A stretch of 48,806 bases of DNA from Fidelibacterota bacterium (lineage in GTDB: Bacteria; Fidelibacterota; UBA8477; JABMPR01), in the NCBI GenBank assembly GCA_021734325.1, contig JAIPJF010000025.1, positions 1 through 48,806 on the forward strand, given 5' to 3'. Below the pieces are notes generated by a model that was not told where the DNA came from, made no database searches, and worked only from the letters and a program-made list of their open reading frames with translations. The number at the start of each line of letters is the position of its first letter. Position 1 is the stretch's first letter. Of the stretch, positions 7,089-22,547 are shown piece after piece. Position numbers and translations under genes: made by a program.

Positions 7089-7234
7089 GCTACTCTCCTT
7101 AATAAATGAATCCACCATTCAAGTTAAACTTAATGCATCGACTAGTAAGTATCTTTGACCCTGCTCACAAATCTTTTTTAACAAATTATGGTGTATGCAA
7201 CAAAAATGATATTTGTTTATTCTGCTGAAAAAAT

Positions 7235-7284: not shown

Positions 7285-8601
7285 TTATTTGATCAGCATC
7301 ATGTTCTTGGCAGATACCTGGCCATTGAATGAGAGCTGATAAATATACAGACCTGAACTCAGGTTTGAACCATCGAAGGAAGCAACATGGTTGCCAGCTG
7401 TCAATTGTTCATTCACCAATGTGGCAACTTCACGACCTTTAACATCAAAAACCGTCAAATTCACTAAACCATCCTGGTGTAGTTCATAAGCAATCGTTGT
7501 TGATGGGTTGAAAGGATTCGGGAAGTTCTGTTTGAGCTCAAATGATGTTGGAAGGGTAATTGGTCTTTCCACACCATCGGGAACTTGATTCCATATCGTT
7601 ACACAATTGTAACCAAAATCAGCCATATACATGATTGTACCATCAGGACTCCAGGCACAACCACGCCCATTCCAAATACCACCCTGCGTGTAATCACCAA
7701 GGGGGGCTCCAAATGAGTATTTCTCTGTTCCATCTGTACCATACACCCAGTAACGTGAACCATGCGCTTCATCACCGGTAAAACCGATCTGCGTATTGGC
7801 CGCGTAGAGATTACCATCAGGACCTAAGCTGACGGCTTCTGGCCACAGGTTCTGGAAAGTTGTGTCATTGATCTGCCATCCACCGATCGTGCTTGCAGAA
7901 TCATGGGGGAAAGTACCTGGAAGATCACTATGAAAATGACGAATACCAATACCATTCCATGTGCTTCCAAAGTATAATTCTTTTCCATCTCCAGAAACAG
8001 CGATTGAACGGGTATATGCGCCCCTAAATTCGGCAATAGCATTGCCAGTCTCAACTAAACTTGAGTTAAGGATCTTCACCGGATTACCAGGACCAACAGT
8101 ACCGATGTAAACGTTGCCTGCATCGTCAACTGCGGGGCAAGTCAATGAGCCGGTGACATCTGGAAAATCATACATGGCCATACCGGCACCAGTAGTGCCG
8201 TTGATTTTGTAAAGTTTACCGGCTATTGAGTAAAGGATGTTACCATCATTATCCGTTGCCATACCACGACAAGCACTTACCAGGGTATCTGTAACACTGC
8301 CATAAGTCAATGTTGATATGGGTGAAAATGAGAGTGGGACTCCTGCAGGTGTCACAGCGAAAATCTGATACACATCCAATGTATCACCAACTGCAGTACC
8401 CCTGTATAATTCAGCAGTAGGATGACCTAACATTGCATACCAGATGTTTCCTGCATTATCGACAGTTACTCCATGCATTCCCCATGAGTCGGAAACGGTC
8501 AGTTCTGGAAAATCTGCAAGTACACCATCAAACTCCCAGCCTCCCATGGCAAAACTACCCAATACGAGTGTTGCCAAAATAATAGATAGCATTTTTTTCA
8601 T
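7285..8601 (-). CDS. Secreted beta-propeller (NHL/SMP-30-like) protein with T9SS sorting domain
   Basis: 438 residues. A signal peptide (MKKMLSIILATLVLGSFAMG) precedes repeated blades such as DNAGNIWYAMLG, DNDGNILYSIAGKLYKI and DDAGNVYIGTVG, typical of NHL-type six-bladed propellers (about 25-345). The C-terminal sorting domain (about 358-438) has NFPNPFNPSTTI and ends NMMLIK. The start is supported by AAGGAGA upstream of the ATG. It is preceded by its own near-consensus promoter (8652-8680) and followed by a strong terminator, so it is probably a single-gene unit. Function unknown; propellers of this kind bind ligands or proteins, and the nearby NHL-TIG lipoprotein (8720-9991) suggests a related surface role. 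Confidence 0.8.
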   Translation of the reverse strand: MKKMLSIILATLVLGSFAMGGWEFDGVLADFPELTVSDSWGMHGVTVDNAGNIWYAMLGHPTAELYRGTAVGDTLDVYQIFAVTPAGVPLSFSPISTLTYGSVTDTLVSACRGMATDNDGNILYSIAGKLYKINGTTGAGMAMYDFPDVTGSLTCPAVDDAGNVYIGTVGPGNPVKILNSSLVETGNAIAEFRGAYTRSIAVSGDGKELYFGSTWNGIGIRHFHSDLPGTFPHDSASTIGGWQINDTTFQNLWPEAVSLGPDGNLYAANTQIGFTGDEAHGSRYWVYGTDGTEKYSFGAPLGDYTQGGIWNGRGCAWSPDGTIMYMADFGYNCVTIWNQVPDGVERPITLPTSFELKQNFPNPFNPSTTIAYELHQDGLVNLTVFDVKGREVATLVNEQLTAGNHVASFDGSNLSSGLYIYQLSFNGQVSAKNMMLIK

Positions 8602-8719: not shown

Positions 8720-9991
8720 TCAATAGCGGCCTCCGTATGGAGCACCTGCTTCTACCATATTAATTTTGTTAAGACGAGTCGTCTTCAATTGGTATAAATA
8801 GTCGCCATTTCCCCAGGTCAGATCAGCCGTAGGCGGACTGAGTATCGGGTCATAAAAGGGTGCCAGTATTCCATTGTCGTACACAAGTATCGCTGAAACA
8901 GAATTGAGACCCAAATACATTTTACCATCTGCCGAGAATGTAACTGCTGTGATCTGAGCGCTTGCATAATCCGGATAATCCCCAAGATCCACAACCAGCT
9001 CTTTGGTTCCAAGAGTGGTTCCGGAAATGGAGTTTTTCCATACTGTGCCTGCCTGACTCACGCCATCAATCTTGTACGAGCCAGCAACATATAGATCATT
9101 ATCGAAAATCCTGACCGCTGCAATTGACAAAGAATCATAGGCATAGGCCGTATCAATGGTTGTGTTTTCGAGATCGAGACTCATGACATATCCAAGTCCT
9201 GAGGCCTTATTCATCCCCAGAAAAGCCTGAGTAGAATCCACAAAATCCAAGTCCTTGGTAAGATCTGTAGATCCAAATATAAACCAATCCGTTACTGCAT
9301 ATGTCCCGTCCAATCGATTCATACTGTACACCAGAGCGCCACCCGTCATATAGAGCATGTCATTCCCGCCATATTTAAGCGCGGTGGAAGAGACGGTAAG
9401 TGTCGAAAACAGCACATCTTTCAGACTATCTGGTTGAACCTCGAGGATCTTGATCTTTGGTGAGCCAAAGGAAGATACGTATAGGTTCTCTGATGTATCA
9501 CAGGCAAGCGAATAAAGTTGGTCAAGATCATCGAAACCACCAATCTCCTTCACTGCCGGTGTAAGCTTATACGGCAAAGCATAATCTCCAAAATGGAATG
9601 AACCCTGCACGGCAACTCGTACTTCGATCGAATCCCCGACAACATCAGGGACTCGGACCCGGAGCTCAGTTGCAGAAGCACTTATCACTTCTCCAGGCAA
9701 GCCATCAAAAAAGACATTGTTATAATCTGGTGTAGCTGAGAAATTCTCCCCTGTAATCCGTACAACACCAACGCCACTGAATGTGATATTGCTGGCATTA
9801 TAATTACTATCTGGTACAACGGTCGTTACGACAGGTGTCGCATTCCCTGTAACATCTGGATCATAAATGCTAACAGGGTCTTCGGTTTCACAGCTGCTCA
9901 TTATCATTGTAAAAACCAGTATACCCATAACAGTCAGTACGGTGGAAATATTTTTTAATGTTTTCATTTTGCCTTGTCCTGTATTTTTCAT
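8720..9991 (-). CDS. Outer-membrane or surface lipoprotein with IPT/TIG and NHL-like propeller domains
   Basis: 423 residues. A signal ending in IMSSCET supplies a lipobox Cys, followed by a TIG/IPT Ig-like domain (about 50-140: VRITGENFSATPDYNNVFFDG, then LRVRVPD) and an NHL-like propeller (about 150-415: LACDTSENLYVSSFG, FSADGKMYLGLN). TIG plus NHL is an architecture also found in surface glycan-binding lipoproteins downstream of SusC/SusD in Bacteroides; here it follows a SusC-like receptor but no SusD. The start at 9991 has GGAGG 9 nt upstream; a second ATG at 9967 is also possible. Last gene of the seven-gene locus, 19 bp after the preceding stop. The ligand is unknown. Confidence 0.8.
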   Translation of the reverse strand: MKNTGQGKMKTLKNISTVLTVMGILVFTMIMSSCETEDPVSIYDPDVTGNATPVVTTVVPDSNYNASNITFSGVGVVRITGENFSATPDYNNVFFDGLPGEVISASATELRVRVPDVVGDSIEVRVAVQGSFHFGDYALPYKLTPAVKEIGGFDDLDQLYSLACDTSENLYVSSFGSPKIKILEVQPDSLKDVLFSTLTVSSTALKYGGNDMLYMTGGALVYSMNRLDGTYAVTDWFIFGSTDLTKDLDFVDSTQAFLGMNKASGLGYVMSLDLENTTIDTAYAYDSLSIAAVRIFDNDLYVAGSYKIDGVSQAGTVWKNSISGTTLGTKELVVDLGDYPDYASAQITAVTFSADGKMYLGLNSVSAILVYDNGILAPFYDPILSPPTADLTWGNGDYLYQLKTTRLNKINMVEAGAPYGGRY

Positions 9992-10010
9992 ATAACGCTA
10001 CCTCCAGTAT

Positions 10011-12134
10011 CTAGCGTACAACAATAAATTTTTTATAGGTGGATCGTCCGTCAGCAGCCTCAAAATGGGCGATATATATTCCGCTGACAAGCACCTGACG
10101 CTTATCAGTGTTTAGCAGCCACGTCTCATCCCCGCTACCGTCTGTATGTTCGATTGTCTTTACCAAATCGCCACGTTCAGTAAATATTCTGATGGTGCAC
10201 TGACCGGGAATATCATAAAAAGCCAATTTATCGGGCTGTCCCACAAAAGCAGTGCTGCGAATATTAAAAGGATTAGGGACGATCCGGATCTGATCCATGG
10301 TTTCCCCTGCTTTTCTTTTAAGGTTAGCAGCTTCGCTTGTCTTTGTATAGAATCTGCTGCTATGCAGGGGACCTGTCGGGTTCAGGTCAGTGTTGTTCTC
10401 GCTGCCATCATTGAAGGCAACTATATAATAAAAGTAGTCCTGTCCACGTACAGGCGTTGTATCATCATATTGATACTGTAATGCCGGATAATCCGTCCCG
10501 TCTCCGCAAGCAAAAATCTCTTCATATGTCGTATCAGGTTTTCCTATGGCCCTATACAATCTGTATCCACCAAAATCCGGATCTGATTCTGAGGGGCTGG
10601 CTACCCAATCCAAATAAATTCGGTCCCCACCAGATGCCACATTAAAACTCTCTGGAGGTAAGGGTGGCTGGGGAATACCGAAATCAGAATCATAGTTGCG
10701 CTTTGCTCTTCCAAAGGTCAACATGATCGAGTCTGCACCAGTGTATACCCAGCTGTTCTTATAGAAATTCAAGTCCGATGTTTGACTGTTATCTGGCAGA
10801 TCAAAGGGACCATTATCGCTGGGAGTGTCATAAGCGCGTTTCCACCTGGCGCCGATCAATTCACACATTTCACGACTCAGACCATTGATTCCTTCAGCTT
10901 CCACGATGGTAATACTTTCACCTGGAGCCAGATCAAATGGTCCATAGGTCATCATAACATTCGTACCCGCACCATCATTGTGAATTTTCCAGGGATCAAC
11001 GGGATCTGTGATGCTGCTGGTGTTGTCTTCATAAAATCTGTTTGTTCCACCCTTACTCGGTCCGCCATATGGATTTCCACTCAGCATATCATAGAGATCG
11101 GCCATTTTAGGGGCATCCTCCGCTCGCTGATCCCCAATCCCCGGGTAGGTATCCCCCGCATGCCAGCCAAGGAATGTCGGTTGGGAGATCCAATCACTCT
11201 TTACTGCAGCGGATTGATCCACATGCAAAACAACTGATCCCGTATGATGGGGTGAGGTCAGCCTGCCGTTCGATGTGATGTCAGGGCCTCCAATATTGTC
11301 AAAGGCATTATTTTCCCCTTGACCAGCCCAGGAAAATCCAGCACGAAGCCAATCCACAATGGGATCTTCTGGTTTAATCGCATTCTGATAATGGGAACTG
11401 TAATCTTCTCCGCGGCGGGTAACCCAAGTATGTTTTCCCCAGCTCTGCCCATCTGCGATGGTCCAGTTTGCTTCACGTCCCATGGAGTATCGTGTTCCCC
11501 ATCCTATCCGAACACCCCTCAAACTGTCATGAAGCTCTATTTCTGCATCCCAGTCCGCATTTCCTGTATTGGTAAAAGTGAACTCCTTGATGAAGTAGTT
11601 GTCATGATACTGCTGACTGAAAGCATATATCTTCCGGGTCATGGTCAAACCAGTTGAGGTATTCACCACATTGGTGATGATCCGATCAGCAATTTGATTT
11701 GCATCGATGGTATCAATTTCACCGGCAAATATCGCTTTCAGATCAGTCCCGTCAACATAGACATCAGGTGGTTTGAATTTTGCCGACTGCTTTAATTCCA
11801 TGGGGTACAGACCGATTCCTTCGGCATTTTGATTAAAATTAACTCCATAATAAGGCCAAAAAGCACCATTCTTATCGGTAAAATTACGCATGCCGATCCA
11901 GGCCCGCTTAATCACGGCATTATCCTGATAGGGATAATCTGCCGGCCAAATTAATCCTTCATAATAAATATTATTCCAGGCTCGCTCTGAACCGTAGGCC
12001 GAGAAATGACTCTGGAGACTCCCAATGCGAACATAGCGTCTTTCAGAAGCATCAATTTTCGCATAGAGTGTCGAAATTGATGTCAGCAGCGTTAGCATTG
12101 CGATAAACTGAATTGTTCTTGTTGTATTCTTCAT
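10011..12134 (-). CDS. Secreted FN3-containing protein with variant T9SS-type C-terminal domain, partner of receptor 2
   Basis: 707 residues: signal peptide, a large family domain of unknown fold (about 30-500), an FN3 domain (about 510-600; RIYLDWVASPSESDPDFGGYRLYRA) and a C-terminal domain beginning VPNPFNI and ending KKFIVVR. It is paralogous to 17143-19251: both share a GLxWPAxY..QD segment near the N-terminus, SxGxTMTRxI, an AEGxxGLSREMC motif and the FN3-CTD tail. Its ATG overlaps the stop of the TonB-dependent receptor gene (TAATG), implying translational coupling and a joint function. It may be a surface partner of that receptor, taking the place that SusD has in Bacteroidota; that is inference from position only. 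No enzyme signature is visible. Confidence 0.75.
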   Translation of the reverse strand: MKNTTRTIQFIAMLTLLTSISTLYAKIDASERRYVRIGSLQSHFSAYGSERAWNNIYYEGLIWPADYPYQDNAVIKRAWIGMRNFTDKNGAFWPYYGVNFNQNAEGIGLYPMELKQSAKFKPPDVYVDGTDLKAIFAGEIDTIDANQIADRIITNVVNTSTGLTMTRKIYAFSQQYHDNYFIKEFTFTNTGNADWDAEIELHDSLRGVRIGWGTRYSMGREANWTIADGQSWGKHTWVTRRGEDYSSHYQNAIKPEDPIVDWLRAGFSWAGQGENNAFDNIGGPDITSNGRLTSPHHTGSVVLHVDQSAAVKSDWISQPTFLGWHAGDTYPGIGDQRAEDAPKMADLYDMLSGNPYGGPSKGGTNRFYEDNTSSITDPVDPWKIHNDGAGTNVMMTYGPFDLAPGESITIVEAEGINGLSREMCELIGARWKRAYDTPSDNGPFDLPDNSQTSDLNFYKNSWVYTGADSIMLTFGRAKRNYDSDFGIPQPPLPPESFNVASGGDRIYLDWVASPSESDPDFGGYRLYRAIGKPDTTYEEIFACGDGTDYPALQYQYDDTTPVRGQDYFYYIVAFNDGSENNTDLNPTGPLHSSRFYTKTSEAANLKRKAGETMDQIRIVPNPFNIRSTAFVGQPDKLAFYDIPGQCTIRIFTERGDLVKTIEHTDGSGDETWLLNTDKRQVLVSGIYIAHFEAADGRSTYKKFIVVR

Positions 12135-15064
12135 TAGAATTTAAACCTCAACCCAAACGTAAACTTTCGGGGATCCAGAAAAGTTAAGGATTGATAGTTG
12201 GGCATATCGATATAAGATTTTGTATCGAGACGCTTCTGGTTTTCCTTCTCAATCGTCGGATCATTTTCAGGATTGGCTACCATTGGGTCGTATGCCACAT
12301 CATATTCACGATAGGTGCCGACATAATCATCACCTTTCTCCAGACCCTCCTCGTAGGCAAAGTGCAGGGATTGGAGATAATCGATATAATCGTATTGGTC
12401 AGAAAAACCACTGTAACTCAGGTATTTCTGGTCAAACAAATTGGCAACATCGCAAAATATTTCAAGGGATGTATTACCAACATTGATCGATTTCTGAGCA
12501 CGGAGATCTGCCGAGAATGAGGGTGCCCATTGGACATATTCATCAATAAACAAGAGGGAGGATAAATTGAACTGGCTTCCAGTTTTATACTGGCCAAGCA
12601 AGCTGAGTTTGATGCCCCCAAGGGGATTGAGCCCCAGTAAACCGGGGCCAAAATCATCTGGTGTTCTCAAAGCGAGATTTGCTCTAAAATAGGGCTGCGG
12701 TCTCGGTTTTGAATCACGAACATTTATACTCTCATAGTCACGCTGATCCTGGGAATTTTGATAATAGCGCAGTAATCCAAAATAGCCGCTTGTTTTCACC
12801 ATGTAAGTGTAATTTACAAAACCTGTGAATATGCGTCCCTGAGGTTTGCTCAGGGTAATCTCAATCCCTCTAATGTCCTGGTAATTATTACTTTCTGCCT
12901 TGCTATAGTTTACAGATCCGTTTGCGTTTCTGTAGACTACCCAACCAGGCTGACCGGTAATGTCTTTATAATACGTTGCCAGGTCCAAAAGATAGGTATT
13001 TAAAAACCCATGGGAGTATCCCAATTCATAGGCGATCGTACGTTCCTGGTCCAACTCAGGATTTCCAAGATTGGTGACAAGACCATTGGATTCTCGCTGC
13101 AGTCTGAATCTGTACGTGGATTGAGCCTCAGAAAAGAAATGGCCATAATTGAAATACAGCTTTGAGTGATCTGTAATCGGATGGGATATGCCAAGTCTGG
13201 GACTGAGCGTAAATGTTGACTCGGATTTTTCCTTCTCCGCTAGTGAATCCAGGTAGCTACCCAAACCCTGTTTGAAAAGATCATCAAAGGGATCCAGGAG
13301 ATAAACATCTGTATTGGCGTCGGCGTATTCTGCACGTAGACCTAAATTCGCGACAAATCCCTCAAATTCAAGTTTGTCCTGAACATAGGCACTGACACGA
13401 TAGGGAGAAACATCGTAATTCATTTCCCGTCGCCAGGTATCCTTGGCACTCTCCATATAGGACCTGACTTTGAATATATCCCACGAGCCCTGCAATCCGA
13501 CCTTCACCTGATTGTGATTATTGATCTGATTGGTATAATCAAACTTCAGCAAATTTGAGAATGTGCGACTGGTGTCTCTTCCTATATTCATCCAGGCACC
13601 TGAATCATATCCATAGGGAGCTTCATCATCATAGAATCCCGGGAAAATCTCGTGCTTCGTCGTATCCCGTGCATCCAGTTCATAGGTCTGATAACGAGTA
13701 ATACCCGATTGTGCAATAATTTCGTAATAGGAGTCCGAAGTGAGCATATGATTAAAGCTTACATTGAATCGCGTCCGGAAGATGGAATAGGGGCTAAAAT
13801 ATCCAGGAGTGAACAATACTGCATCATCGGCTAGATTTGCCACACTGTAGGTCCCCCTTAACAGATTCCCTTCTGGGACTGTGGTCCAGTTATAGGGATT
13901 GATTGAATGCTCCTCAGAATAGAGGGTGGTTGCGACGAGCTTTTTGTTATTGCTGATATTATAGTTCAACTTCAAGCGTGTTGAGTTCGAGCTGTAACCG
14001 TCTCGTGAAAGGGGGAAAATGAACATTTCCTCTTCGTTACGATAAGAAAGATAAAATCTCAGCTTGGAGATCAGAGGCACAGGTCCTCCGAATCCAATAT
14101 CCAGGGTCTGATCAGGTTTGGTGATCTCACCAGTACGTCGATGCTCATAGATCCATTGCTGCTGGGCAGCAGACGCAGTCATACCAGTTTCTGCATCATA
14201 GCGTTCATTCCACCCGGCAAAGTTTATGTATTGACGTTGGGTGTACTCATCCCAGGCCCCATTGTCTGTCCCGGACCAGGCTACATCATCATCCAGATAG
14301 GGACGAAGAAAGTAGGAATTCTTGTCATAAGGAGAAATACCGTAATGTTTGGGGGCTGCCGGGCTCACCTGATAATAGAAGGAGGCAACATATTTGTCGG
14401 CAGGACCTTCAGCCGTTGTCACGTTAACAATACCTGATCGGATATTTCCATATTCTGCGTTAAATCCACCGGATTGGACCTGTATCTCTTCTACAGAACT
14501 TAGACTGATCGTTGTAACAGGTGCATTGGAACGGTTATCACTCAAAATAAAACCATCCATGATCACCGCTGTTTGGGCTGAACTCCCCCCCCGCACCTGC
14601 ATATTCTCAACACCGGCCTGAACACCGAGGATGGAGCTCACAGAAGAAATCGGAAGTTGCTCAATTGAGGTCTGACTCATATTCAGTTGACTACCAGACA
14701 GATCCTTTTTGACAATGGGCCGCTCACTATATACTGTGACGGTTTCCAGTCCCAATACTTCCAGTTGGAGTTTAAAGTCAATCTCGGTGGTCAAGCCAAT
14801 AATGACATCAACATTTGCTATGCTTAGTGTGCTATACCCCATCATCGATGCCTGAAGCGTGTATCTGCCTGGTCTGATATTCAGGATGCTATAGAAGCCA
14901 TCCATATCGCTTGCAGCGCCTACTCCCAGTTCAGGAATAATCACATTCACACCTATCAATCTCTCACCGGTGGAACCATCGCTTATATAACCACTGATCT
15001 TACCAGTCGGTGAAGACCAGGCAAAGCTGATTATCATTAAGCTTAAAAGAGAGCCTCTGATCAT
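12134..15064 (-). CDS. SusC-like TonB-dependent receptor 2
   Basis: 976 residues from ATG 15064 (a TTG at 15073 in frame is an alternative; neither has a clear ribosome site). Signal peptide, a carboxypeptidase-D-like regulatory beta-sandwich (about 20-100: GKISGYISDGSTGERLIGVN), a plug domain (about 125-220: NMQVRGGSSAQTAVIMDGF, GGFNAEYGNIRSGIVNV) and a 22-strand-type outer-membrane barrel ending in the aromatic terminus FGLRFKF. The family imports large ligands with TonB energy. It is a paralogue of 19287-22547 but lacks the calcium-loop insertion. It is coupled to the following FN3 protein by a one-base stop/start overlap. No TonB, ExbB or ExbD gene lies in the window. Substrate unknown. 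Confidence 0.85.
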   Translation of the reverse strand: MIRGSLLSLMIISFAWSSPTGKISGYISDGSTGERLIGVNVIIPELGVGAASDMDGFYSILNIRPGRYTLQASMMGYSTLSIANVDVIIGLTTEIDFKLQLEVLGLETVTVYSERPIVKKDLSGSQLNMSQTSIEQLPISSVSSILGVQAGVENMQVRGGSSAQTAVIMDGFILSDNRSNAPVTTISLSSVEEIQVQSGGFNAEYGNIRSGIVNVTTAEGPADKYVASFYYQVSPAAPKHYGISPYDKNSYFLRPYLDDDVAWSGTDNGAWDEYTQRQYINFAGWNERYDAETGMTASAAQQQWIYEHRRTGEITKPDQTLDIGFGGPVPLISKLRFYLSYRNEEEMFIFPLSRDGYSSNSTRLKLNYNISNNKKLVATTLYSEEHSINPYNWTTVPEGNLLRGTYSVANLADDAVLFTPGYFSPYSIFRTRFNVSFNHMLTSDSYYEIIAQSGITRYQTYELDARDTTKHEIFPGFYDDEAPYGYDSGAWMNIGRDTSRTFSNLLKFDYTNQINNHNQVKVGLQGSWDIFKVRSYMESAKDTWRREMNYDVSPYRVSAYVQDKLEFEGFVANLGLRAEYADANTDVYLLDPFDDLFKQGLGSYLDSLAEKEKSESTFTLSPRLGISHPITDHSKLYFNYGHFFSEAQSTYRFRLQRESNGLVTNLGNPELDQERTIAYELGYSHGFLNTYLLDLATYYKDITGQPGWVVYRNANGSVNYSKAESNNYQDIRGIEITLSKPQGRIFTGFVNYTYMVKTSGYFGLLRYYQNSQDQRDYESINVRDSKPRPQPYFRANLALRTPDDFGPGLLGLNPLGGIKLSLLGQYKTGSQFNLSSLLFIDEYVQWAPSFSADLRAQKSINVGNTSLEIFCDVANLFDQKYLSYSGFSDQYDYIDYLQSLHFAYEEGLEKGDDYVGTYREYDVAYDPMVANPENDPTIEKENQKRLDTKSYIDMPNYQSLTFLDPRKFTFGLRFKF

Positions 15065-15084
15065 TTTGTACAATAGTCTATCTC

Positions 15085-15113
15085 ACTATACTGAATTAAA
15101 TTGAAAATCTCAC
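15085..15113 (-). promoter_or_regulatory. Possible internal promoter before receptor 2
   Basis: Minus-strand GTGAGA (15108-15113), 17-bp spacer, TATAGT (15085-15090). It overlaps the end of the PorV-like gene and would give the receptor gene a very short leader. It could let the second receptor/FN3 pair be expressed apart from the first. Confidence 0.35.
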
Positions 15114-16112
15114 AGTCATGCGCTGGACAGCATCAAAATGGGCAAAGGGTTCATAGGCATAATCAAACATCAGTCCAATTGCTTTCACTCCCACGCCAAA
15201 TGAAATATCATTTTCATCGTTTGAGGACATATAACCAGTCCTGAATGCGACCATCTCAATTGGTTTGTATTCCAGACCTACCCTGATTTGTTCAGCATGG
15301 GAGCGGTAATGGAGGGCATCTATGCTCACCAACAGCTTCTGATTACCCAGCATTTCACGTTTCAAATCAAAGACATCCATGGATATACCCAGTGTAAAGG
15401 TAAGGGGTAATTGAAATCCCTCAGATTCAAAGGTCACTTCATTGGAAAAATTACGCACGGACATGCCAAAAGCCAGACTGTTCCAGCCTGTTCGGTAAAT
15501 GGTTCCAAAATCAAAGGCACTAGAGAATGCCAGATGTGACTTTACCGTATCGGGAGTCGCATTATCATCCTCTGCAGGATACACGCTCTTTCCATAGTTA
15601 AGACCTACATATTTTACATGGGCACCCACAGCAAATTTATCACTCAGGGCTTTGGCATAACCAAACCCCATAGCATATGCAGAAGGCGTTAAAATCTCTG
15701 TATCGATATAACCCGGTTCATTGTTCCATCGCTGTGTACCCTGGATGTCACCATAGTCAACCGACACCAGAGAGGCGGCAAACACGCCCCATGCACCCTG
15801 ATTTGGATTAAACGCAAAGGAAAACGAATTGTAAGCGATGTCAGCAATCCACTGATTCTGGCTTGCCATGGCATCGATCTTTGCATTCATTCTGGCCATA
15901 CCGGCGGGATTAAAAAAGAGTGATGCGGAATTCATCTCGACAGTTGTCAATGCGCCTCCCATACCTCCTGCTCTTGCATCAGAGTCAACACTCAGGAACT
16001 GGGCACCTGTTTGGGCCAGTTTCACCTGGGAGAAAACAACACTCAGGGATACCAGGAAAAACACCAGGAATCGACTGCTTTGTTTCATAAAAATATATTT
16101 TTTCATAAGCAT
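15096..16112 (-). CDS. PorV/PorQ-family (UPF0164) outer-membrane protein
   Basis: 338 residues. After a signal peptide (FLVFFLVSLSVVFSQ) the mature start (LAQTGAQFLSVDSDARAGGMGGA, here split over the N-terminal region) and ASLFFNPAGMA are hallmarks of the PorV/UPF0164 family. The rest is an amphipathic beta-barrel ending in VRFSI. PorV is the T9SS outer-membrane shuttle that receives cargo C-terminal domains. Here it lies among two T9SS-type cargos, so a dedicated export or docking role is plausible. Several starts are possible: GTG 16121, ATG 16112, ATG 16106 and ATG 16088. 16112 is chosen because AAAGGG lies 8 nt upstream, inside the end of the previous gene, whose stop is at 16114-16116. 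Confidence 0.75.
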   Translation of the reverse strand: MLMKKYIFMKQSSRFLVFFLVSLSVVFSQVKLAQTGAQFLSVDSDARAGGMGGALTTVEMNSASLFFNPAGMARMNAKIDAMASQNQWIADIAYNSFSFAFNPNQGAWGVFAASLVSVDYGDIQGTQRWNNEPGYIDTEILTPSAYAMGFGYAKALSDKFAVGAHVKYVGLNYGKSVYPAEDDNATPDTVKSHLAFSSAFDFGTIYRTGWNSLAFGMSVRNFSNEVTFESEGFQLPLTFTLGISMDVFDLKREMLGNQKLLVSIDALHYRSHAEQIRVGLEYKPIEMVAFRTGYMSSNDENDISFGVGVKAIGLMFDYAYEPFAHFDAVQRMTVRFSI

Positions 16113-16113
16113 A

Positions 16114-17130
16114 TTATTCACCCTTTACCATTACGAGACTAAAATTCTGCTCTTCCATTTCCTCATCTGGGAGAAACTGGATGAGATAGGATTTATTCTC
16201 AAGTGCATAAACCGCTTTTGTTTTTACATCCGGGCAATACGCGACTACCTGCATTGAGATTGTTTTATCAACTGGTTCAAGTTGCAGTCCGTTGGCGTCC
16301 CAAATGGCAATTGTCAGGTAATCAGTTACGTTGAAAACAATTTCAGCAGTCGCTTCACCTGACCTGTCAAACAGCAGATATCCTGCATCGGTTTTGGATT
16401 CCAGTTTTATGGCAAGGAGGGAATCAGTGCTTGGCAGGTAGACTGAGTCAGAGCTCAAATAGTCAACAGCTACCTCAAAACCAGCAATATCAGCAGCATA
16501 ATATTCTGATGGTGCTTTTTTGAACGTTGCGAGAGAACCTCCTGCAATGCGGTAGACCTTGCTATCTGCAGACTGCTTAATGGCTCCATCTTCTATGGAA
16601 ATGGTCCAATTGTCAGACTCCCCCACCAGCCCCTGACTGAAATCAATGAATGCAGTGGCCGTATAGGTGTTTGGAATCAGCAGTGTATCTTTGGACAGCC
16701 CAGTAAAATTAGGCGTGCCAAGCGGGTTATAAATATAGGCTATTTTAATATCCTCGGCCTGGCCGCTCGTCTCATTATAGTTAAACTCGATGATCTTCAT
16801 GGCTGCAAGCGTATCGGTATCATCGATAAACACGTAAACGTCTGGTACCAATTCGAACTCTTCTGTATACCAACTCGCATCGATCCGAACCGTGCCCTCA
16901 AAAGCTGAAGAAATATTATCCCCTGTCCATGCCGGTCCAAACAAAAAGAGGTCTGCCGCAGTCACGGCAATATCCAATGAGTCGTTGAGACGGTTACAAA
17001 TAAATTCCTCCTGGTCAGACATGAGATAGGTTTTATCCTCAAAATCTTCACAGCTTATAAAAGAAATGATGGGCAACAGGATCATCATCCATAGCAGAGG
17101 ACGCTGAGTATATTTTTTAATTCCGGACAT
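16114..17130 (-). CDS. Predicted lipoprotein of unknown function
   Basis: 338 residues. The N-terminal signal ends ISFISCED, a plausible lipobox with Cys27. The mature protein is acidic and beta-rich with no domain I recognise; tandem Ig-like segments are possible (about 55-160 and 240-338). The ATG has AAGGGG 8 nt upstream and lies 12 bp after the preceding stop. It sits between the first FN3 partner protein and the PorV-like gene and ends only a base from the PorV start. It may be a periplasmic or surface accessory of the receptor/T9SS locus. Function not assigned. Confidence 0.7.
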   Translation of the reverse strand: MSGIKKYTQRPLLWMMILLPIISFISCEDFEDKTYLMSDQEEFICNRLNDSLDIAVTAADLFLFGPAWTGDNISSAFEGTVRIDASWYTEEFELVPDVYVFIDDTDTLAAMKIIEFNYNETSGQAEDIKIAYIYNPLGTPNFTGLSKDTLLIPNTYTATAFIDFSQGLVGESDNWTISIEDGAIKQSADSKVYRIAGGSLATFKKAPSEYYAADIAGFEVAVDYLSSDSVYLPSTDSLLAIKLESKTDAGYLLFDRSGEATAEIVFNVTDYLTIAIWDANGLQLEPVDKTISMQVVAYCPDVKTKAVYALENKSYLIQFLPDEEMEEQNFSLVMVKGE

Positions 17131-17142
17131 ATTTGTATCCCC

Positions 17143-19251
17143 TTATCGTATAACTATGAATTTTCGGAAAGTGGATTCGCCTTCCGGTGTTTCAAAATGG
17201 GCTATGTAAATACCACTGACAATAAGCTGTCGGTATTCAGTAATCGAATCCCAGGACTCATCACCACTGTTGTCAGTGTGTTCGATTGTGTAGATCAGGT
17301 CACCCCGCTCGGTGTAAATTCTGATGGTACAAACCGGTGGGACATCATAAAAATACAGCCTGTCCGGATTTCCCGGGCCAAATTGCAGTTCACCTCCACT
17401 GGCTTTGATATTGAAGGGGTTGGGCACGATTCTAATATCATCCAGACTCTTTCCCGGTGGTCTTTTCAGCTTGGCTCCCTTGCTGGTCATCGTGTAAAAT
17501 TTGCTGCTGTACAGGGGCGCTCCCAAATCGACCTGGTTGCTATTCCCGTCATCATAGCTGACGATATAGTAATAATATTCAAATCCACGTTTTGCCTTAA
17601 CATCAGCAAATTCATTGGTCAAATTACTCAGATCACAGGAGAAGATTTCCTCATAGGTCGTATCTGGCTGATGAATGGCGCGGAATACTTTATACCCGGC
17701 AAAACCAGGGAAATCCTCAGCCGAATTAGACCAGACTAATTTGATCTGATCTCCCCCGGAAATAACCTCAAATTTATCAGGTGGTGGTGGCGGTGTTGGA
17801 ATTGCATAATCTGCCTCAAATGCATCTATAGCCCGATTGAAGGTACGTAGCAGTGAATCTTCACCGGTAAACACCCAATTATTTTTATATTCATCCTTGG
17901 ATGCAGGTGTCGAACCATCAGGGTTACTTAGACCGCCCAAGGCAACAGTGGCATCATACCAGTTACCTCCAACCTCATAGCACATCTCACGACTTAATCC
18001 CGAGACACCCTCGGCCAATACGATATGTATTTTTTGCCCGGGAGCAATATCGTAGGGTCCAAAAGCCTGGGCCTGTGAATACCCACCAGGATCATTACCC
18101 CAGTTATCAGCAGTACTTGCAAATTTCCAATCTGTTGCTGTATAACCAATCTCTTCAGCTTGTGATTTGGCTGGATGACCGAGCATCATGTGAGCATAGC
18201 GTCCCTGCATTTTTGAGGGATTGTACTGGTCATTATTATAGGTAATAGGATCATCAGATCCAATATACCAGGTCGTAGATGGTTGACTGAGATCATCGGT
18301 ATGATCAGTTGTGGATTTATCTGCGTGCAAAGTGACTATTCCCATAAAATGCTGTGCGCTCAGATGACCATCTCCACCCTCCCCATAATAGGGAGCGCCA
18401 ATATTGTCATGACCGTCCGCAGCCTGTGAATGCAATCCATGCCATGAATATTGGGCACGAATTTCACCGTCTGCCGGATACTCCCCAAGCACTTCATTCA
18501 CCGTATTTCGACCCCAGGCTGTGTTCTGGGGAAGCCAATACCCGCCACTACCATAAGGACCACCCTCACGACTGGCAGCATATCGATACTGGAACATGAA
18601 GTAGACTCCGGTTAGAGTTTTACTAAATGAATCCCCTGCCTCGTTGTAGATACCTGTGTTTTCAAACACATAATCAGTGATGTGGTAATTGTTATGATTC
18701 TGATTTGAAAAACCGATGATATTACGGGTCATGGTAATACCCATGGACGTGTTGACCACGTTTAGAATCCGGCGATCCGGAAGCATATTGACATCCACAC
18801 TGTCGACCAGATCCATAAACTCAAGGGTGCTCGCCGGCTCACCATCAACACTCACATTCGGATGATCATATTTGGCATACATTTTAAATTTCTGGGTCAT
18901 GATCTCAGCTTTACTGTCTACCGGACCCCTGGGACCAATATGAGCAACCTTATAATCGAAAGTCTTTCCAGCAACAGGATCGGCGTAATTGGTTGAGCCA
19001 ATCCATAAGCCTTTGGCTGCCTGGACATCCTGAAAACTATACTGGGCAGGCCAGCGTAATCCATCCTGCTGGTCCCGAACCTGGCCAGTGCGACCGACTT
19101 CAATCTCGAAACCCTGTTCAGAGTACCAGTTATGGAGATCACCGATTGCGATCCACTTGCTCTCCGCAGCTGAAATGTCAGAAATAAATGTGAAGGCAAA
19201 TAGTGTTATAAGTAATGTTGTGAGTCGTGTATTTTTATCAAAATTTATCAT
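17143..19251 (-). CDS. Secreted FN3-containing protein with variant T9SS-type C-terminal domain, partner of receptor 1
   Basis: 702 residues: signal peptide (LLITLFAFTFISDISAAES), a large unassigned family domain (about 30-500), an FN3 domain (about 505-600) and a C-terminal domain beginning VPNPFNI and ending RKFIVIR. It is a paralogue of 10011-12134, with the same GLRWPAQYSFQD, AEGVSGLSREMC and ERGDLIYTIEHTD-type motifs in the same order. ATG supported by AAGGA 9 nt upstream. It follows the receptor stop by 35 bp and precedes the unknown lipoprotein by 12 bp. The repeated pairing of receptor and this protein type suggests they work as a complex at the surface. No catalytic motif recognised. 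Confidence 0.75.
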   Translation of the reverse strand: MINFDKNTRLTTLLITLFAFTFISDISAAESKWIAIGDLHNWYSEQGFEIEVGRTGQVRDQQDGLRWPAQYSFQDVQAAKGLWIGSTNYADPVAGKTFDYKVAHIGPRGPVDSKAEIMTQKFKMYAKYDHPNVSVDGEPASTLEFMDLVDSVDVNMLPDRRILNVVNTSMGITMTRNIIGFSNQNHNNYHITDYVFENTGIYNEAGDSFSKTLTGVYFMFQYRYAASREGGPYGSGGYWLPQNTAWGRNTVNEVLGEYPADGEIRAQYSWHGLHSQAADGHDNIGAPYYGEGGDGHLSAQHFMGIVTLHADKSTTDHTDDLSQPSTTWYIGSDDPITYNNDQYNPSKMQGRYAHMMLGHPAKSQAEEIGYTATDWKFASTADNWGNDPGGYSQAQAFGPYDIAPGQKIHIVLAEGVSGLSREMCYEVGGNWYDATVALGGLSNPDGSTPASKDEYKNNWVFTGEDSLLRTFNRAIDAFEADYAIPTPPPPPDKFEVISGGDQIKLVWSNSAEDFPGFAGYKVFRAIHQPDTTYEEIFSCDLSNLTNEFADVKAKRGFEYYYYIVSYDDGNSNQVDLGAPLYSSKFYTMTSKGAKLKRPPGKSLDDIRIVPNPFNIKASGGELQFGPGNPDRLYFYDVPPVCTIRIYTERGDLIYTIEHTDNSGDESWDSITEYRQLIVSGIYIAHFETPEGESTFRKFIVIR

Positions 19252-19286
19252 AGATCAGATTCCTTATCGCTTACATCCACTATGTA

Positions 19287-22200
19287 TTAAAAGTCATATG
19301 AGATATTAATGCCAAAGAAAATATCCCGCGGAGCAAGAAAAATGAATGAGCTCTGATTCGGCATATCGATATAAGCCTTATCTTCAACAACCTTATCCAG
19401 ATAGGCCTGGTCTACTTCACTCCAACCAGAGTTGTGATCGTACTGAACGTAGGATTCAGTTGCCGAGTCAAAGTAGATAGGTCTTTCTTCAGGAGCTGCA
19501 ATCTTAGTCACATCACCGACCCATTCGATGGGAACAAATTCGACCCCATCGGCACGTATATCACCGGGATTGTCATCATGGGCAATACCGGGGAGGACAT
19601 TCAATCCAGCTTCTGACAATTTGTCCTCTGGCAAAAGCAGGGAACGCATGTAGAAATTATAATCGTGAATGTCATAGAATCCGTAGGTGCTGAAGGTTTT
19701 AATATTGAGTGCATTATTCACATCGGCAAAAAATTTGATCTTCATTTTTCCGACATCGAATACTTTAGATAATTTTAGATCCACAGACTTATTGTCCTGC
19801 CATCTGAAATTATAGATCAATCCTTCAATTCCATTTGGATTGTATGTGAACCAGCTCCCTGCACGCCAACTGCTTAACACATTCAAGTGCCAATCAGCAA
19901 GAAGGTTCTGCCCCATAACTTTTGGACCAAAATTCCTCGGTGTATGCAGGTCTATCACAGATTTAACCCGCGGGGTGGGTCTGGGTTTTGATTGCTTGGA
20001 GATATTGGCCAGATAATCACGCTGTGCTTTCGAATCTTCGTAATAGGATTTGATGCCAAAATATCCAGATGTATTTACCCGATATTCATAATTGATATTA
20101 CCCGTGATCCAGTCACCAACCATTTTGGAGATATCGGCCTCAAAACCACGAATATCTTCATAGCTGTTTGCCGTAAGTTGACTGTAGTTCACACTACCGC
20201 TTGCACTGATATAGGTGGTCCAATCCTGTTGATCCGAAATGTCCTTATAATATGCTGCAATATGCAGGAGGTACATATCCAACAAGGCATGGTCATATCC
20301 AAGTTCGTAGGCGATGGTCCTTGCCTGGTCCAGGGTGGGATCGCCGATTGTAGAGAGCTGGGTCAAATCGCCAACATCCCTGTTTTCATCAAGCACTGCT
20401 TTTCTCTGCATCCGGAACAGACTTTCAGCTGTGGGAACCTGACGATAGTGACCATAATTGAAGTACAATTTAGAGTTTATGGTAATCGGATGTGAAATCG
20501 CCAATCTCGGGCTGAGATAAAAACGGGGATCAACTTTTACCTTTTCAAATTCCCCATCTTTACTGAGCGAGTAATTCGATGAGTAAAAATCATTGTCGTA
20601 TACATCCACTTGGTACCATTCCGTATTGGGATTAATGAGTTCAGCATTCACACCAATGGAAGCGATAAAGCCCTCAAATTCCAACTTGTCCTGTATATAA
20701 GCACTCAATCGATATGGATTATAGGACATGCTTGTCCAGTAATTTCCCTCAGGTAAAAAGTAGTTGAGGGAGCCAAACTCCATGCTCAGATCATCATAAA
20801 TAAATTCAAGACCTGTTTTTATTTGATTGTTGCTGTTAATCTGATTTACGTAATCACCCTTGATGGAAGTTGTATTGACCACACTTTCATCTCGAGAGGT
20901 GCTGACAGCTCCCCCCATGGTCAGTTTTCCTTCGATACTCGTTACAGGTGTGCCATAGAAACCAACAGGGGCTTCATCAGCAAAATATCCATCAAATATT
21001 TCGTAGAGGGTTTCAGTATCCCGAGCTTTTCCCGGTTCAGTGTTATATTTTTTGTTAATGTGCTTAACGAGTATCTCATAATAGCTGGAGGAACTTAGCA
21101 AATTTGTAAATTTTGCAGATATGGTGCTATGAGAGACTGTTGTTGGTGACCAGTATTCATTGGAATAAAGACGCCAGGGCATGGTGAAACCGGCCATGTT
21201 CACCTCAGATGCAAGATCCCATACATTTGACATTGTGCTTGTTAATCCACTGCGAGAGGAGGTTGTCGCTTCCAAATCGCCAGCCATATAGGTAATGTTT
21301 ATTTTTTTACTTCTGGATATGTCAGAGGTCATTTTCAGCAGGGTGGTCCTGGAGAAGCTCCCAGTTCGTGAAACAGGGTACAGATATTCACTATTATCCT
21401 GCCGATAGGACAAGAAAAAGCGAAGATTTCCTAAAGCAGGTCCAATTATCGGGACAGGTCCACCGAAACCGGCATCTATGTTCAAATCAGGATTTATAAT
21501 ATTCCCAGCTTTCCGATATTGCCACTCAAAAACTCGCCGTGCAGCTGCAGGTGAAAGATCATCTGACGGATCTGCATTCGCTAATGTCGCCTCAGATAGC
21601 GTATTCCAACCCTCGAATAATGGGAATTGTCGTTGCTCGTATTTATCCCAGGCCGTGTACTTTCCATCATTGTTAAAGTCAGTGTAGGGTTCGCCTTCAT
21701 CCCAATAACCATTGCCGTCAACATCGGAGTAGGTTTCCCCTGCTTCAGTTCCAGTCCAGGCAACGGCATCATCGAGGTATGGTCTCAAATAATATGAATC
21801 TGCATCATAAGGTGATATTCCGAAATGTTTGGGTTCAGCCGGACTATATTTCACGGATACTGTCCCGCTATACCCACCGCTTCCATCCTTGGTCACCACA
21901 TTCACGACACCTGATCTCACATTTCCATATTCAGCGCTAAAACCTCCAGTTTGGACTGAGATTTCCTGCACTGCACTTAATGGAACACCAGTAATCGGTT
22001 GATTGGTGCGTTGGTCTTTCAGCTCAATCCCATCAATCATGAGGGAAGTTTCATCTGTCCCCCCTCCTCTGACAGAAAATCCACTTACACCAGCCTGCAA
22101 GCCGAGAACCTCGCTTACACTGGCAACAGGTAATTGATCGATCCCTTCTGAACTCATGCTGCGCTGACTAGCGGCAACATCCATCTTGATCACCTTACGC

Positions 22201-22547
22201 TCAGCTGTAATTATGACCGATTCACCCTCTATCACTTGTTCAGACATCGCAATATTCAAAGTTTTTGTTCGGTCGATCTCAACTCTAACCTCCCGGATTT
22301 CGTAATTCGAGTAGCCGATCATGCTGGCCCTGACGGTACGATTTCCTGGGGGAACATTTAAGATGACATAATAGCCATCAAGATTTGTGGTCGATCCCAG
22401 ATTGGTGCCATCAATAATGATATTGACACCGATCAGTGGCTCACCACTTTCCCCATCGGTCACCATTCCAGAAATTTTTCCCGTCGTTCCTGCTATCGCA
22501 TAAGATGAAATGGCAAGTAGAATAGTAAATAGTTTAACTCTTCGCAT
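19287..22547 (-). CDS. SusC-like TonB-dependent receptor 1 with EF-hand-like calcium loops
   Basis: 1086 residues. Signal peptide, carboxypeptidase-D-like regulatory domain (about 22-105), plug domain (about 130-225: GFSVRGGGTDETSLMIDGIE; GGFSAEYGNVRSGVVNV) and a long barrel ending FGINISYDF. Between PYLDDAVAWTG and QRQFPLFEGW it carries an insertion with two 12-residue EF-hand-type loops, DVDGNGYWDEGE (275-286) and DFNNDGKYTAWD (290-301), absent from receptor 2. These probably bind calcium in an extracellular segment. The ATG has GAGGG 8 nt upstream. It is the first gene of the seven-gene locus, with about 240 bp between it and polA. Ligand unknown. Confidence 0.87.
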   Translation of the reverse strand: MRRVKLFTILLAISSYAIAGTTGKISGMVTDGESGEPLIGVNIIIDGTNLGSTTNLDGYYVILNVPPGNRTVRASMIGYSNYEIREVRVEIDRTKTLNIAMSEQVIEGESVIITAERKVIKMDVAASQRSMSSEGIDQLPVASVSEVLGLQAGVSGFSVRGGGTDETSLMIDGIELKDQRTNQPITGVPLSAVQEISVQTGGFSAEYGNVRSGVVNVVTKDGSGGYSGTVSVKYSPAEPKHFGISPYDADSYYLRPYLDDAVAWTGTEAGETYSDVDGNGYWDEGEPYTDFNNDGKYTAWDKYEQRQFPLFEGWNTLSEATLANADPSDDLSPAAARRVFEWQYRKAGNIINPDLNIDAGFGGPVPIIGPALGNLRFFLSYRQDNSEYLYPVSRTGSFSRTTLLKMTSDISRSKKINITYMAGDLEATTSSRSGLTSTMSNVWDLASEVNMAGFTMPWRLYSNEYWSPTTVSHSTISAKFTNLLSSSSYYEILVKHINKKYNTEPGKARDTETLYEIFDGYFADEAPVGFYGTPVTSIEGKLTMGGAVSTSRDESVVNTTSIKGDYVNQINSNNQIKTGLEFIYDDLSMEFGSLNYFLPEGNYWTSMSYNPYRLSAYIQDKLEFEGFIASIGVNAELINPNTEWYQVDVYDNDFYSSNYSLSKDGEFEKVKVDPRFYLSPRLAISHPITINSKLYFNYGHYRQVPTAESLFRMQRKAVLDENRDVGDLTQLSTIGDPTLDQARTIAYELGYDHALLDMYLLHIAAYYKDISDQQDWTTYISASGSVNYSQLTANSYEDIRGFEADISKMVGDWITGNINYEYRVNTSGYFGIKSYYEDSKAQRDYLANISKQSKPRPTPRVKSVIDLHTPRNFGPKVMGQNLLADWHLNVLSSWRAGSWFTYNPNGIEGLIYNFRWQDNKSVDLKLSKVFDVGKMKIKFFADVNNALNIKTFSTYGFYDIHDYNFYMRSLLLPEDKLSEAGLNVLPGIAHDDNPGDIRADGVEFVPIEWVGDVTKIAAPEERPIYFDSATESYVQYDHNSGWSEVDQAYLDKVVEDKAYIDMPNQSSFIFLAPRDIFFGINISYDF

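Follow-up and report, generated by a model that had tools for sequence, protein, structure and literature searches.

The window is a stretch of 48,806 nucleotides from a contig of a Fidelibacterota bacterium. Its locus of interest is a row of seven closely packed genes, all on the minus strand as the sequence-only reading had claimed, and their open reading frames match the coordinates in Table 1 exactly. The genes are separated by 35 bp (receptor 1 to FN protein 1), 12 bp (FN protein 1 to LPx), 22 bp (PorV to receptor 2), and 19 bp (FN protein 2 to the TIG protein). LPx and PorV overlap by 8 bp, provided that PorV begins at the listed GTG, and the coupling of receptor 2 to FN protein 2 by a TAATG overlap is confirmed in the sequence. 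The two receptor/FN3 pairs are paralogous, as had been proposed, the receptors being 39% identical over 1084 columns and the FN proteins 39% over 738. The seven genes stand, but the same-strand row continues beyond the proposed extent of the locus with a propeller-like protein and two GHL10 proteins, all three with canonical T9SS tails. In the GHL10 protein at 2013..3860, the tail scores 31 bits with TIGR04183 (cut-off 23) and falls just below the cut-off of the Pfam tail model. A homologue of the N-terminal part of the propeller-like protein is present in 41 of 79 loci, and one of each GHL10 protein in 22 of 79. A scan of the window for promoters and terminators gave 28 and 11 sites respectively, where shuffled sequences averaged 32.3 and 11.1.

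Table 1. Genes of the locus and of the row that continues downstream
Feature	Coordinates	Strand	Description
Receptor 1 (TBa), 1086 aa	19287..22547	(-)	CarboxypepD-regulatory N-terminal domain, TonB-box-like segment, plug, predicted barrel
FN3/vCTD protein 1 (FNa), 702 aa	17143..19251	(-)	Directly behind TBa; predicted T9SS-delivered partner of receptor 1
LPx, 338 aa	16114..17130	(-)	Predicted surface lipoprotein; acidic stretch after lipobox-like cysteine
PorV/PorQ-family barrel	15096..16121	(-)	Predicted dedicated shuttle/anchor of vCTD
Receptor 2 (TBb), 979 aa	12134..15073	(-)	PF13715 and PF07715
FN3/vCTD protein 2 (FNb), 707 aa	10011..12134	(-)	Predicted partner of receptor 2
TIG lipoprotein, 423 aa	8720..9991	(-)	PF01833 E 1.3e-7; candidate surface binding protein or alternative lid
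Propeller-like protein	7285..8601	(-)	Canonical T9SS tail, Por_Secre_tail E 1e-8; SGL sub-threshold; frequent neighbour
GHL10 glycosyl-hydrolase-like protein	3954..7118	(-)	PF02638 E 1.3e-33; Big_5 domains; canonical T9SS tail
GHL10 glycosyl-hydrolase-like protein	2013..3860	(-)	PF02638 E 1.2e-70; canonical-type T9SS tail

Both receptors match CarbopepD_reg_2 (PF13715; E 7e-20 in TBa and 2.5e-16 in TBb) and the plug domain (PF07715; E 5e-9 and 2.8e-6), the latter above cut-off in each. The name SusC-like, given to them earlier, applies only loosely: neither receptor reaches the cut-off of the SusC model TIGR04056 (368.25 bits), TBa scoring 79.7 and TBb not being listed. The S-layer model NF052345 matches the N-terminal parts of both receptors (E 3e-13 and 6e-14), far under its cut-off. 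This match, and the CarboxypepD-type receptor Oar of Myxococcus, which has a role in secretion (Oar/PopC), would suit receptors that serve export or surface assembly, helping in the placement of the FN3 protein or of a surface layer and importing no nutrient. Such a role is quite improbable, since the plug is kept and a TonB-box-like segment is present in the consensus of 60 receptors (a simple pattern matched just 4 of the 13 printed ones). Moreover, the multiple diversified copies per genome suit substrate specialization, and starch-, beta-glucan- and sugar-ABC-type genes adjoin some of the related gene cassettes described below.

SusD is the lipoprotein partner of SusC, and its gene usually lies directly behind the receptor gene. 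That the locus has no SusD was seen earlier; the absence extends to the whole genome, the SusD_RagB family (PF07980) giving no match in it or in any of six other genomes, with a positive Bacteroides control. A receptor that has merely lost its SusD locally is thereby ruled out. The related search with PF14322 found nothing in the genome of the window and gave matches in 3 of the 60 genomes searched, G060-G063 lying outside that set.

No Pfam match to an FN3 domain was obtained in the window proteins. The profile of the FN family nevertheless matches a solved FN3-type domain over residues 488-575 (E 3e-4, PDB profile search); its N-terminal 450 residues gave no convincing PDB profile match. The T9SS-type tails claimed for these proteins hold in terms of homology to canonical tails (hhalign probability 98), but score below the TIGR04183 cut-off (19.5 and 17.5 versus 23). 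With a profile of their own they reach 103 bits (FNa) and 98.7 bits (FNb), and the PorZ model NF052228 also matches FNb, over residues 608-707 only (E 7e-4, far under the model cut-off). The FN3 proteins carry a distinct type of T9SS tail, here called vCTD, that is under-scored by the standard model. Searched against the PDB, the vCTD profile matches PorZ best (5m11, E 1.7e-4) and PorU next (2e-3); because PorU matches the canonical-tail profile too (E 6e-4), the two tail types are told apart there by the PorZ entry alone. Counted from the PNP motif, the median length is 97 for vCTD versus 83 for canonical tails. Tail lengths given in one study, counted from other start points, are 96 for PorZ, 108 for PorU and 67-88 for cleaved tails (PMC11285876), and according to a review the PorU and PorZ tails remain bound to PorV and PorQ (PMC10202324). 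Judged by length and best PDB match, vCTD resembles the uncleaved T9SS tails that dock on a PorV-like barrel.

The barrel encoded between the two pairs belongs to the PorV family (NF033709, 181.9 bits versus a cut-off of 90), and its PDB match is PorV (6h3i, E 3.7e-5). It does not reach the equivalog cut-offs for PorV, PorQ or PorV2 (76.7 versus 250 and 79.7 versus 220 for housekeeping PorV/PorQ), and PorP/SprF is not among the five NCBIfam families listed for it. The sequence-only reading had named a PorV-like barrel and assigned it no role. The SprA translocon is encoded in the same genome (TIGR04189 above cut-off), and the model has matches in 59 of 60 genomes, 58 of them above cut-off.

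Two lipoproteins complete the unit. LPx gave no match in Pfam or NCBIfam, and its C27 is invariant in an alignment of nine homologues. For 32 of 125 FN genes, a single unlabelled ORF separates FN from PorV, and 24 of the 32 fit a loose lipobox pattern. By eye, the TIG protein begins with a lipobox-like segment, and in many loci its homologues lie near where the unit ends. The NHL repeats assigned to it earlier are not borne out: a Pfam scan of the window protein and eight relatives found neither these nor a beta-propeller, apart from one sub-threshold match to Reg_prop among the relatives.

The arrangement recurs well beyond the window. Gene order was read around every above-cut-off NF033709 match in seven genomes, namely that of the window and six from several FCB lineages. 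PorV genes were scored with our own profile at 60 bits or more, and removal of one overlap duplicate (L259/L260) gave 98 genes; the scoring left out four genes below 60 bits and frames of at least 700 aa (NF033709 matches in such frames at L226 and L246). The first loci served as the training set for the receptor and PorV HMMs, the places being located with the public models NF033709 and PF07715. The order TonB receptor, FN3/vCTD protein (the cargo), PorV was found for 59 of the 98 genes, in 53 cases directly, in five with a single intervening gene after the cargo, and in one with two cargos. Median gaps in these cassettes are 17 bp from receptor to FN3 protein (n=59) and 13 bp from FN3 protein to PorV (n=54 direct), and the receptors measure 868-1195 aa (n=59). 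The remaining 39 PorV genes, which count against a dedicated three-part system, comprise five receptor-PorV cases, four vCTD-PorV cases at a contig edge, one vCTD-x-PorV, nine with a canonical tail before PorV, 19 others and one at an edge. In four of the five receptor-PorV cases the receptor has a vCTD gene three genes upstream, and in the fifth (L233) a vCTD directly follows PorV. Recurrence across loci and genomes excludes an oddity local to one genome. Chance gene order is also rejected: in the closed genome G036, assuming 2500 genes, about 0.1 pairs of receptor and PorV on the same strand within two genes are expected and nine are seen (12 within three genes).

Homologues of the FN3 proteins, rather than lying mostly away from receptors, stand directly behind one in 109 of 116 cases (125 FN-family ORFs in 79 loci, nine of them at a locus edge). 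Cargos outside the window family (n=48) match the tail in 48 of 48 and the FN3 region in 47 of 48, partially in some; only nine of the 48 show a window-family match before residue 420, and single-linkage joining of 66 cargo N-terminal parts proceeds mostly via the FN3 domain. Patristic distances correlate between receptor and cargo (0.92), receptor and PorV (0.89), and cargo and PorV (0.86), and none of 1000 within-genome shuffles reaches these values (maximum 0.29). Such co-phylogeny is expected for any stable operon. Recurrence across genomes and the distinct tail type lay beyond what the sequence-only reading could see.

The vCTD profile (A3, which includes sequences from the genomes searched with it) gave 32 matches of at least 80 bits in three whole genomes, the next scoring 46.5, and all 32 lie within receptor/PorV clusters; TIGR04183 matches in the same genomes number 75, 79 and 80. 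In the genome of the window, eight of nine vCTDs but none of 14 canonical tails are behind a receptor (Fisher p 2e-5), with subtypes assigned by eye when neighbours had already been seen, one odd tail (L167:9659) omitted, and two of the 14 having no upstream neighbour in view. Since the tail-classifying HMMs were built from sets from that genome, their independence is limited to the six others. These distributions bear on whether the genes are simply transcribed together and form no complex, the PorV paralogues being general T9SS shuttles and vCTD a divergent type A tail. The homology of vCTD to canonical tails would fit, as would the single PorV that serves all type A tails of F. johnsoniae (PMC12618676). 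We hold this to be very improbable, given the exclusive clustering of strong vCTDs with receptor and PorV, the three-way co-phylogeny, and the nine canonical tails directly before PorV, none of which has a receptor in the next two upstream genes (two of the nine end at a contig edge).

The cassette probably encodes a TonB importer with an outer partner that the T9SS delivers, that a PorV of its own holds in place and that takes the role of SusD. This reading draws on gene order, tail type, the clustering of tail, receptor and PorV, co-phylogeny, SprA in the genome of the window, and the absence of PF07980. The FN3 protein would be exported via Sec and then SprA, and not the housekeeping PorV but the cognate PorV-family barrel would pick up its vCTD. 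Because this tail would be left uncleaved, PorV and cargo would remain joined, and PorV would position the cargo above or beside the receptor. There the cargo would capture substrate and aid its loading for TonB-driven import. The FN3 protein would thus fill the job of SusD, with protein docking replacing the lipid anchor, and it is a candidate lid or other surface binding protein. Docking of vCTD on PorV, retention of the tail, contact with the receptor, lid action and the substrate are what we infer beyond the gene data. Of the earlier suggestion, a relation of receptor and partner is supported by gene order, co-phylogeny and glycan-type contexts; SusC-likeness and NHL repeats had been over-read. 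Against a dedicated PorV, FNb has none directly behind it, so the two FN proteins of the window would share one.

The lid itself may be sought elsewhere, since the two lipoproteins of the window unit, and others beside some other cassettes (L161, L162 and L164 among them), are alternative candidates. Receptor, FN3 protein and PorV would then still form one complex, with the FN3 protein as a glycan-binding or scaffold subunit at the surface and the TIG or LPx lipoprotein as lid. The TIG lipoprotein and the LPx position do recur in the window-type unit, and published work describes BtuG as a non-SusD lid on BtuB (PMC10404256), XusB as handing siderophores to XusA (PMC13142918), and utilisomes as carrying additional surface proteins on SusCD (PMC7618045). 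We nonetheless think a lipoprotein lid unlikely: the TIG label is limited to window-type loci and the cassette-less locus L266, the propeller fold of the TIG proteins is unconfirmed by Pfam, and a gene separates cargo from PorV in just five of the 59 cassettes. The place behind the receptor, where SusD normally sits, is constantly taken by the FN3/vCTD gene.

The T9SS-delivered importer shares features with several known systems. Like SusC/SusD and utilisomes, the cassette has a CarboxypepD/plug TonB receptor followed directly by a large partner gene, in some cases near starch- or beta-glucan-type genes; unlike them, it occurs in genomes that gave no match to PF07980 (7/7), its partner ends in a T9SS tail, the set includes a PorV-family barrel, and the window receptors miss the cut-off of the SusC model. 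BtuB/BtuG and XusA/XusB also pair a receptor with a non-SusD surface partner, but those partners are surface lipoproteins, and no PorV is named in the abstracts. In SprB/SprF and PG1035/PorP, T9SS cargo with a type B CTD is paired with its own barrel, often from the adjacent gene; the tail is apparently retained, with the PorP/SprF barrel as anchor (PMC9143113, PMC12618676). The cassette differs in having a PorV-family barrel, a TIGR04183-related tail and a TonB receptor. PorQ-PorZ and PorV-PorU share with what is proposed here an uncleaved CTD protein sitting on a PorV-like barrel (PMC10202324), but they serve sortase-like processing, whereas the cargo of the cassette is an FN3 protein whose gene follows that of a receptor. 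Finally, in BamG/BamH of the Bacteroidota BAM a FadL-type barrel binds a surface protein; that pair is part of an OMP assembly machine, and its authors judge a PorV-like function unlikely (PMC12578637). No description of a cassette of receptor, T9SS cargo and PorV was found in the open-licence PMC literature among the matches listed (titles and starts of abstracts), subscription journals and preprints being outside that search.

It is conceivable, though we put it forward tentatively, that in the non-Bacteroidota FCB a superfamily of T9SS-delivered FN3 proteins stands in genome-wide for the SusD-type partner, each fixed next to its receptor by a dedicated PorV-family barrel via a retained vCTD, a tail class of its own, and that the T9SS builds nutrient importers besides secreting enzymes. 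If true, several little-studied lineages would import large nutrients through receptors whose partner is placed by a secretion system and has no lipid anchor. Many PorV paralogues would gain a function, the T9SS would be tied to nutrient import, and vCTD would be a T9SS tail class under-called by the current model. Glycan-type neighbours, which occur at only some cassettes, a point against the importer reading, were recorded in a PUL-type census of 73 proteins of at least 200 aa encoded within two genes of a cassette, for 37 cassettes other than those of the window type or the genome of the window, which took the first 25 of 66 families. The cassettes would offer testable sets of receptor, partner and anchor with hints of substrate such as starch or beta-glucan: starch-binding modules and an alpha-amylase adjoin the cassette at L164, two GH16 proteins that at L162, and LacI, PfkB and a sugar ABC system that at L166.

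The locus is, as the sequence-only reading had described, a tight unit of seven minus-strand genes; its gaps are at most 35 bp, and two junctions overlap. The order is a TonB receptor (TBa), an FN3 protein (FNa), a predicted surface lipoprotein (LPx), a PorV-family barrel, a second receptor (TBb), a second FN3 protein (FNb) and a TIG lipoprotein. The two receptor/FN3 pairs are indeed paralogous: TBa and TBb share 39% identity, as do FNa and FNb. By Pfam and NCBIfam, each receptor has a CarboxypepD-regulatory domain and a plug, the barrel exceeds the cut-off of the PorV family model (PorV_fam, NF033709) without reaching the PorV and PorQ equivalogs, and the last protein has a TIG domain. FNa and FNb match no family above cut-off in these two collections; a profile of their family (117 sequences) does hit FN3-type domains of PDB entries. 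The same strand carries, farther downstream, genes for a propeller-like protein and two GHL10 proteins, all three ending in canonical T9SS tails. A 2.93 Mb genome (37 contigs, 84% complete) contains the window as its contig C37; the nearest named homologues of the window are in Neomarinimicrobiota MAGs. Immediately upstream of the locus is polA, which is upstream of this gene family in loci L044-L047 too. The NCBIfam model of an anammox S-layer glycoprotein, NF052345, matches the N-terminal CarboxypepD and plug region of both receptors near the model's own C-terminal end, and may include a receptor-like segment.

Coordinates of the features discussed
Feature	Source	Position	Strand
Seven-gene locus	window	8720-22547	minus
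Receptors matched by NF052345	window	12134-22547	minus
polA	window	22787-25513	
Sub-threshold Rotamase_2 match	own genome, locus L164	13013-14662	
Thirteenth receptor outside clusters	own genome, contig C32	11853	
Open frame (616 aa) with tandem PorV matches	genome G030, contig C2	235602-237293	

The FN3 proteins had been expected beside receptors, and this is where their homologues are found. In 79 loci retrieved via the FN protein (labelled Neomarinimicrobiota, Calditrichota, KSB1, Melioribacteraceae, Ignavibacteria, Delongbacteria, 'Bacteroidetes' and others), 125 FN-family ORFs of at least 250 aa were counted. Nine sit at the edge of a locus; of the 116 that do not, 109 lie directly behind a receptor. 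The seven exceptions comprise two with one intervening gene, a tandem FN, two that follow canonical-tail genes and two others. PorV follows the FN gene directly in 27/125 cases and after one unlabelled ORF in 32/125; a loose lipobox pattern fits 24 of these 32 ORFs, which are in the LPx position. Many of the remaining FN ORFs run into an edge or have TIG or a second receptor as the next gene. Of 60 genomes, the own one included, 41 have FN matches at E 1e-50 or better, 18 have weaker ones and one has none.

The arrangement extends well beyond this family. In the own genome, 22 plug receptors and nine PorV_fam loci above cut-off were counted, and the regions read contain six more triplets of receptor, T9SS-tail protein and PorV besides the window's. 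In the other PorV_fam loci, PorV is directly behind a receptor (L161) or has no receptor (L167). Among the 13 receptors outside clusters, the 12 read (L168-L179) have no adjoining PorV or T9SS-tail protein, the downstream side being cut by the contig end at L169 and L172; a canonical-tail frame is close to the thirteenth. With six added genomes, the region round every PorV_fam match above cut-off was read, and 98 PorV genes were scored after one overlap duplicate was dropped. The order receptor, cargo protein(s) with a distinct tail (vCTD), PorV holds for 59 of the 98: 7/9 in the own genome, 11/13 in G036 (closed) and 8/14 in G030, both of the window's phylum, 8/20 in G060 (Calditrichaeota, L100), 3/6 in G061 (Melioribacteraceae, L107), 8/15 in G062 (Delongbacteria, L087) and 14/21 in G063 ('Bacteroidetes', L081). 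Median gaps are 17 bp between receptor and cargo (n=59) and 13 bp between cargo and PorV (the 54 directly adjacent pairs). Protein lengths are 868-1195 aa for receptors, 609-1590 aa for cargos and 305-390 aa for PorV. In the 48 cargos that do not belong to the window family, the tail matches that family's in every case and the FN3 region in 47, some matches being partial. Four genomes (L161, L189, L201, L249) show a variant of this order: vCTD, canonical-tail protein, lipoprotein or ORF of ~500 aa, receptor, PorV. In five genomes (L167, L181, L198, L227, L247) a PorV-family gene (355-451 aa), perhaps the housekeeping PorV, adjoins a T9SS-tail protein (912-1047 aa) in a region where no receptor is seen. 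An open frame of G030 with two PorV matches in tandem is perhaps a fusion; the ORF reading gives two ORFs there (L210).

The cargo tail has the consensus VVPNPY ... LPxxCTIRIYT ... GKFAxIK. The remaining T9SS-tail proteins that were read in the own genome carry variants of NPFNPSTTI ... KMxLLK instead. The two tails are homologous (hhalign 98) yet separable by profile score. Searching the own genome, G036 and G030 with the vCTD profile yields 32 matches of at least 80 bits (9, 13 and 10), the next being at 46.5 bits; the standard tail model TIGR04183 yields 75, 79 and 80 matches there. By reading of gene lists, each of the 32 strong vCTDs shares its cluster with a receptor and PorV_fam. Twenty-seven precede PorV, immediately or at a distance of one gene; three have the variant order, with a lipoprotein of ~500 aa; one is FNb, closing its operon with TIG; and one is an FN gene of G030 that the contig edge truncates, its receptor and a PorV being upstream. 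The vCTDs of FNa and FNb score below the TIGR04183 cut-off, so T9SS cargo counts by this model may be too low in these lineages.

The cassettes are largely inherited as units across lineages, as indicated by tree-distance correlations over 59 cassettes (receptor-cargo 0.92, receptor-PorV 0.89, cargo-PorV 0.86) and by a nearest relative shared by both partners (41/59, 39/59 and 37/59, respectively). With partners shuffled within genomes (1000 trials each), the mean correlation is 0.03-0.05 and the maximum 0.29. The same pattern is expected of any stable operon.

How the cassette might work is suggested by comparison with known T9SS components. In the PDB, the vCTD profile matches PorZ best and PorU second; the hits of the canonical profile are FlgD, PorU and, at weak scores, gingipains, and PorZ reaches just E 0.6. 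The span from PNP to the end has a median of 97 residues in vCTDs (n=59, 57-106) and 83 in canonical tails (n=14, 78-86); in PMC11285876, the tails of PorZ and PorU, which are not cleaved, measure 96 and 108 residues and cleaved tails 67-88, with start points that differ from PNP. PorU and PorZ tails remain bound to PorV and PorQ, and a cognate PorV-like barrel handling a tail is suggested to shield it from cleavage (review, PMC10202324, in part). By analogy, the vCTD would remain docked on its PorV. In type B systems also, the cargo has its own barrel, through which it is secreted and anchored (excerpts of PMC12618676 and PMC9143113), but of the SprF/PorP type, not the PorV family. SprA is present. 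The cassette joins two known kinds, a TonB receptor with a surface partner and a T9SS cargo with its own barrel, a combination that we have not seen described among the listed titles and abstract starts of open-access literature, where the receptor-T9SS cargo-PorV cassette does not appear.

The lack of a SusD lid noted earlier extends to all seven genomes: SusD_RagB (PF07980) was found in none of them, with a positive Bacteroides control. SusD-like_3 (PF14322) was not found in the own genome, G030 and G036, and is present in 3/60 genomes. In the favored reading, the FN3 protein would take the place of SusD and capture the substrate in a complex that takes in the receptor as well as PorV. The main alternative is that a lipoprotein of the locus would be the lid over the receptor, as is BtuG, a lipoprotein-lid precedent (PMC10404256, in part). 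The glycan-type neighbors of cassettes make nutrient import, of glycans in part, the likely function of the class. In the own genome, one cassette (L164) adjoins a protein with several starch-binding modules and has an alpha-amylase near; two GH16 genes adjoin another (L162); and a LacI regulator, a PfkB kinase and a sugar ABC transporter are near a third (L166). In the other genomes, 73 neighbors of 37 cassettes were surveyed; among the families listed, GH94, GH9, glucoamylase, GHL10, ABC-transporter and LacI each recur with 2-4 members. For the window unit, the only hint of a substrate is GHL10 neighbors in 22/79 loci. Rotamase_2, a PPIC-type PPIase, is found in 6 of the 73 neighbors, and once below threshold in the own genome.
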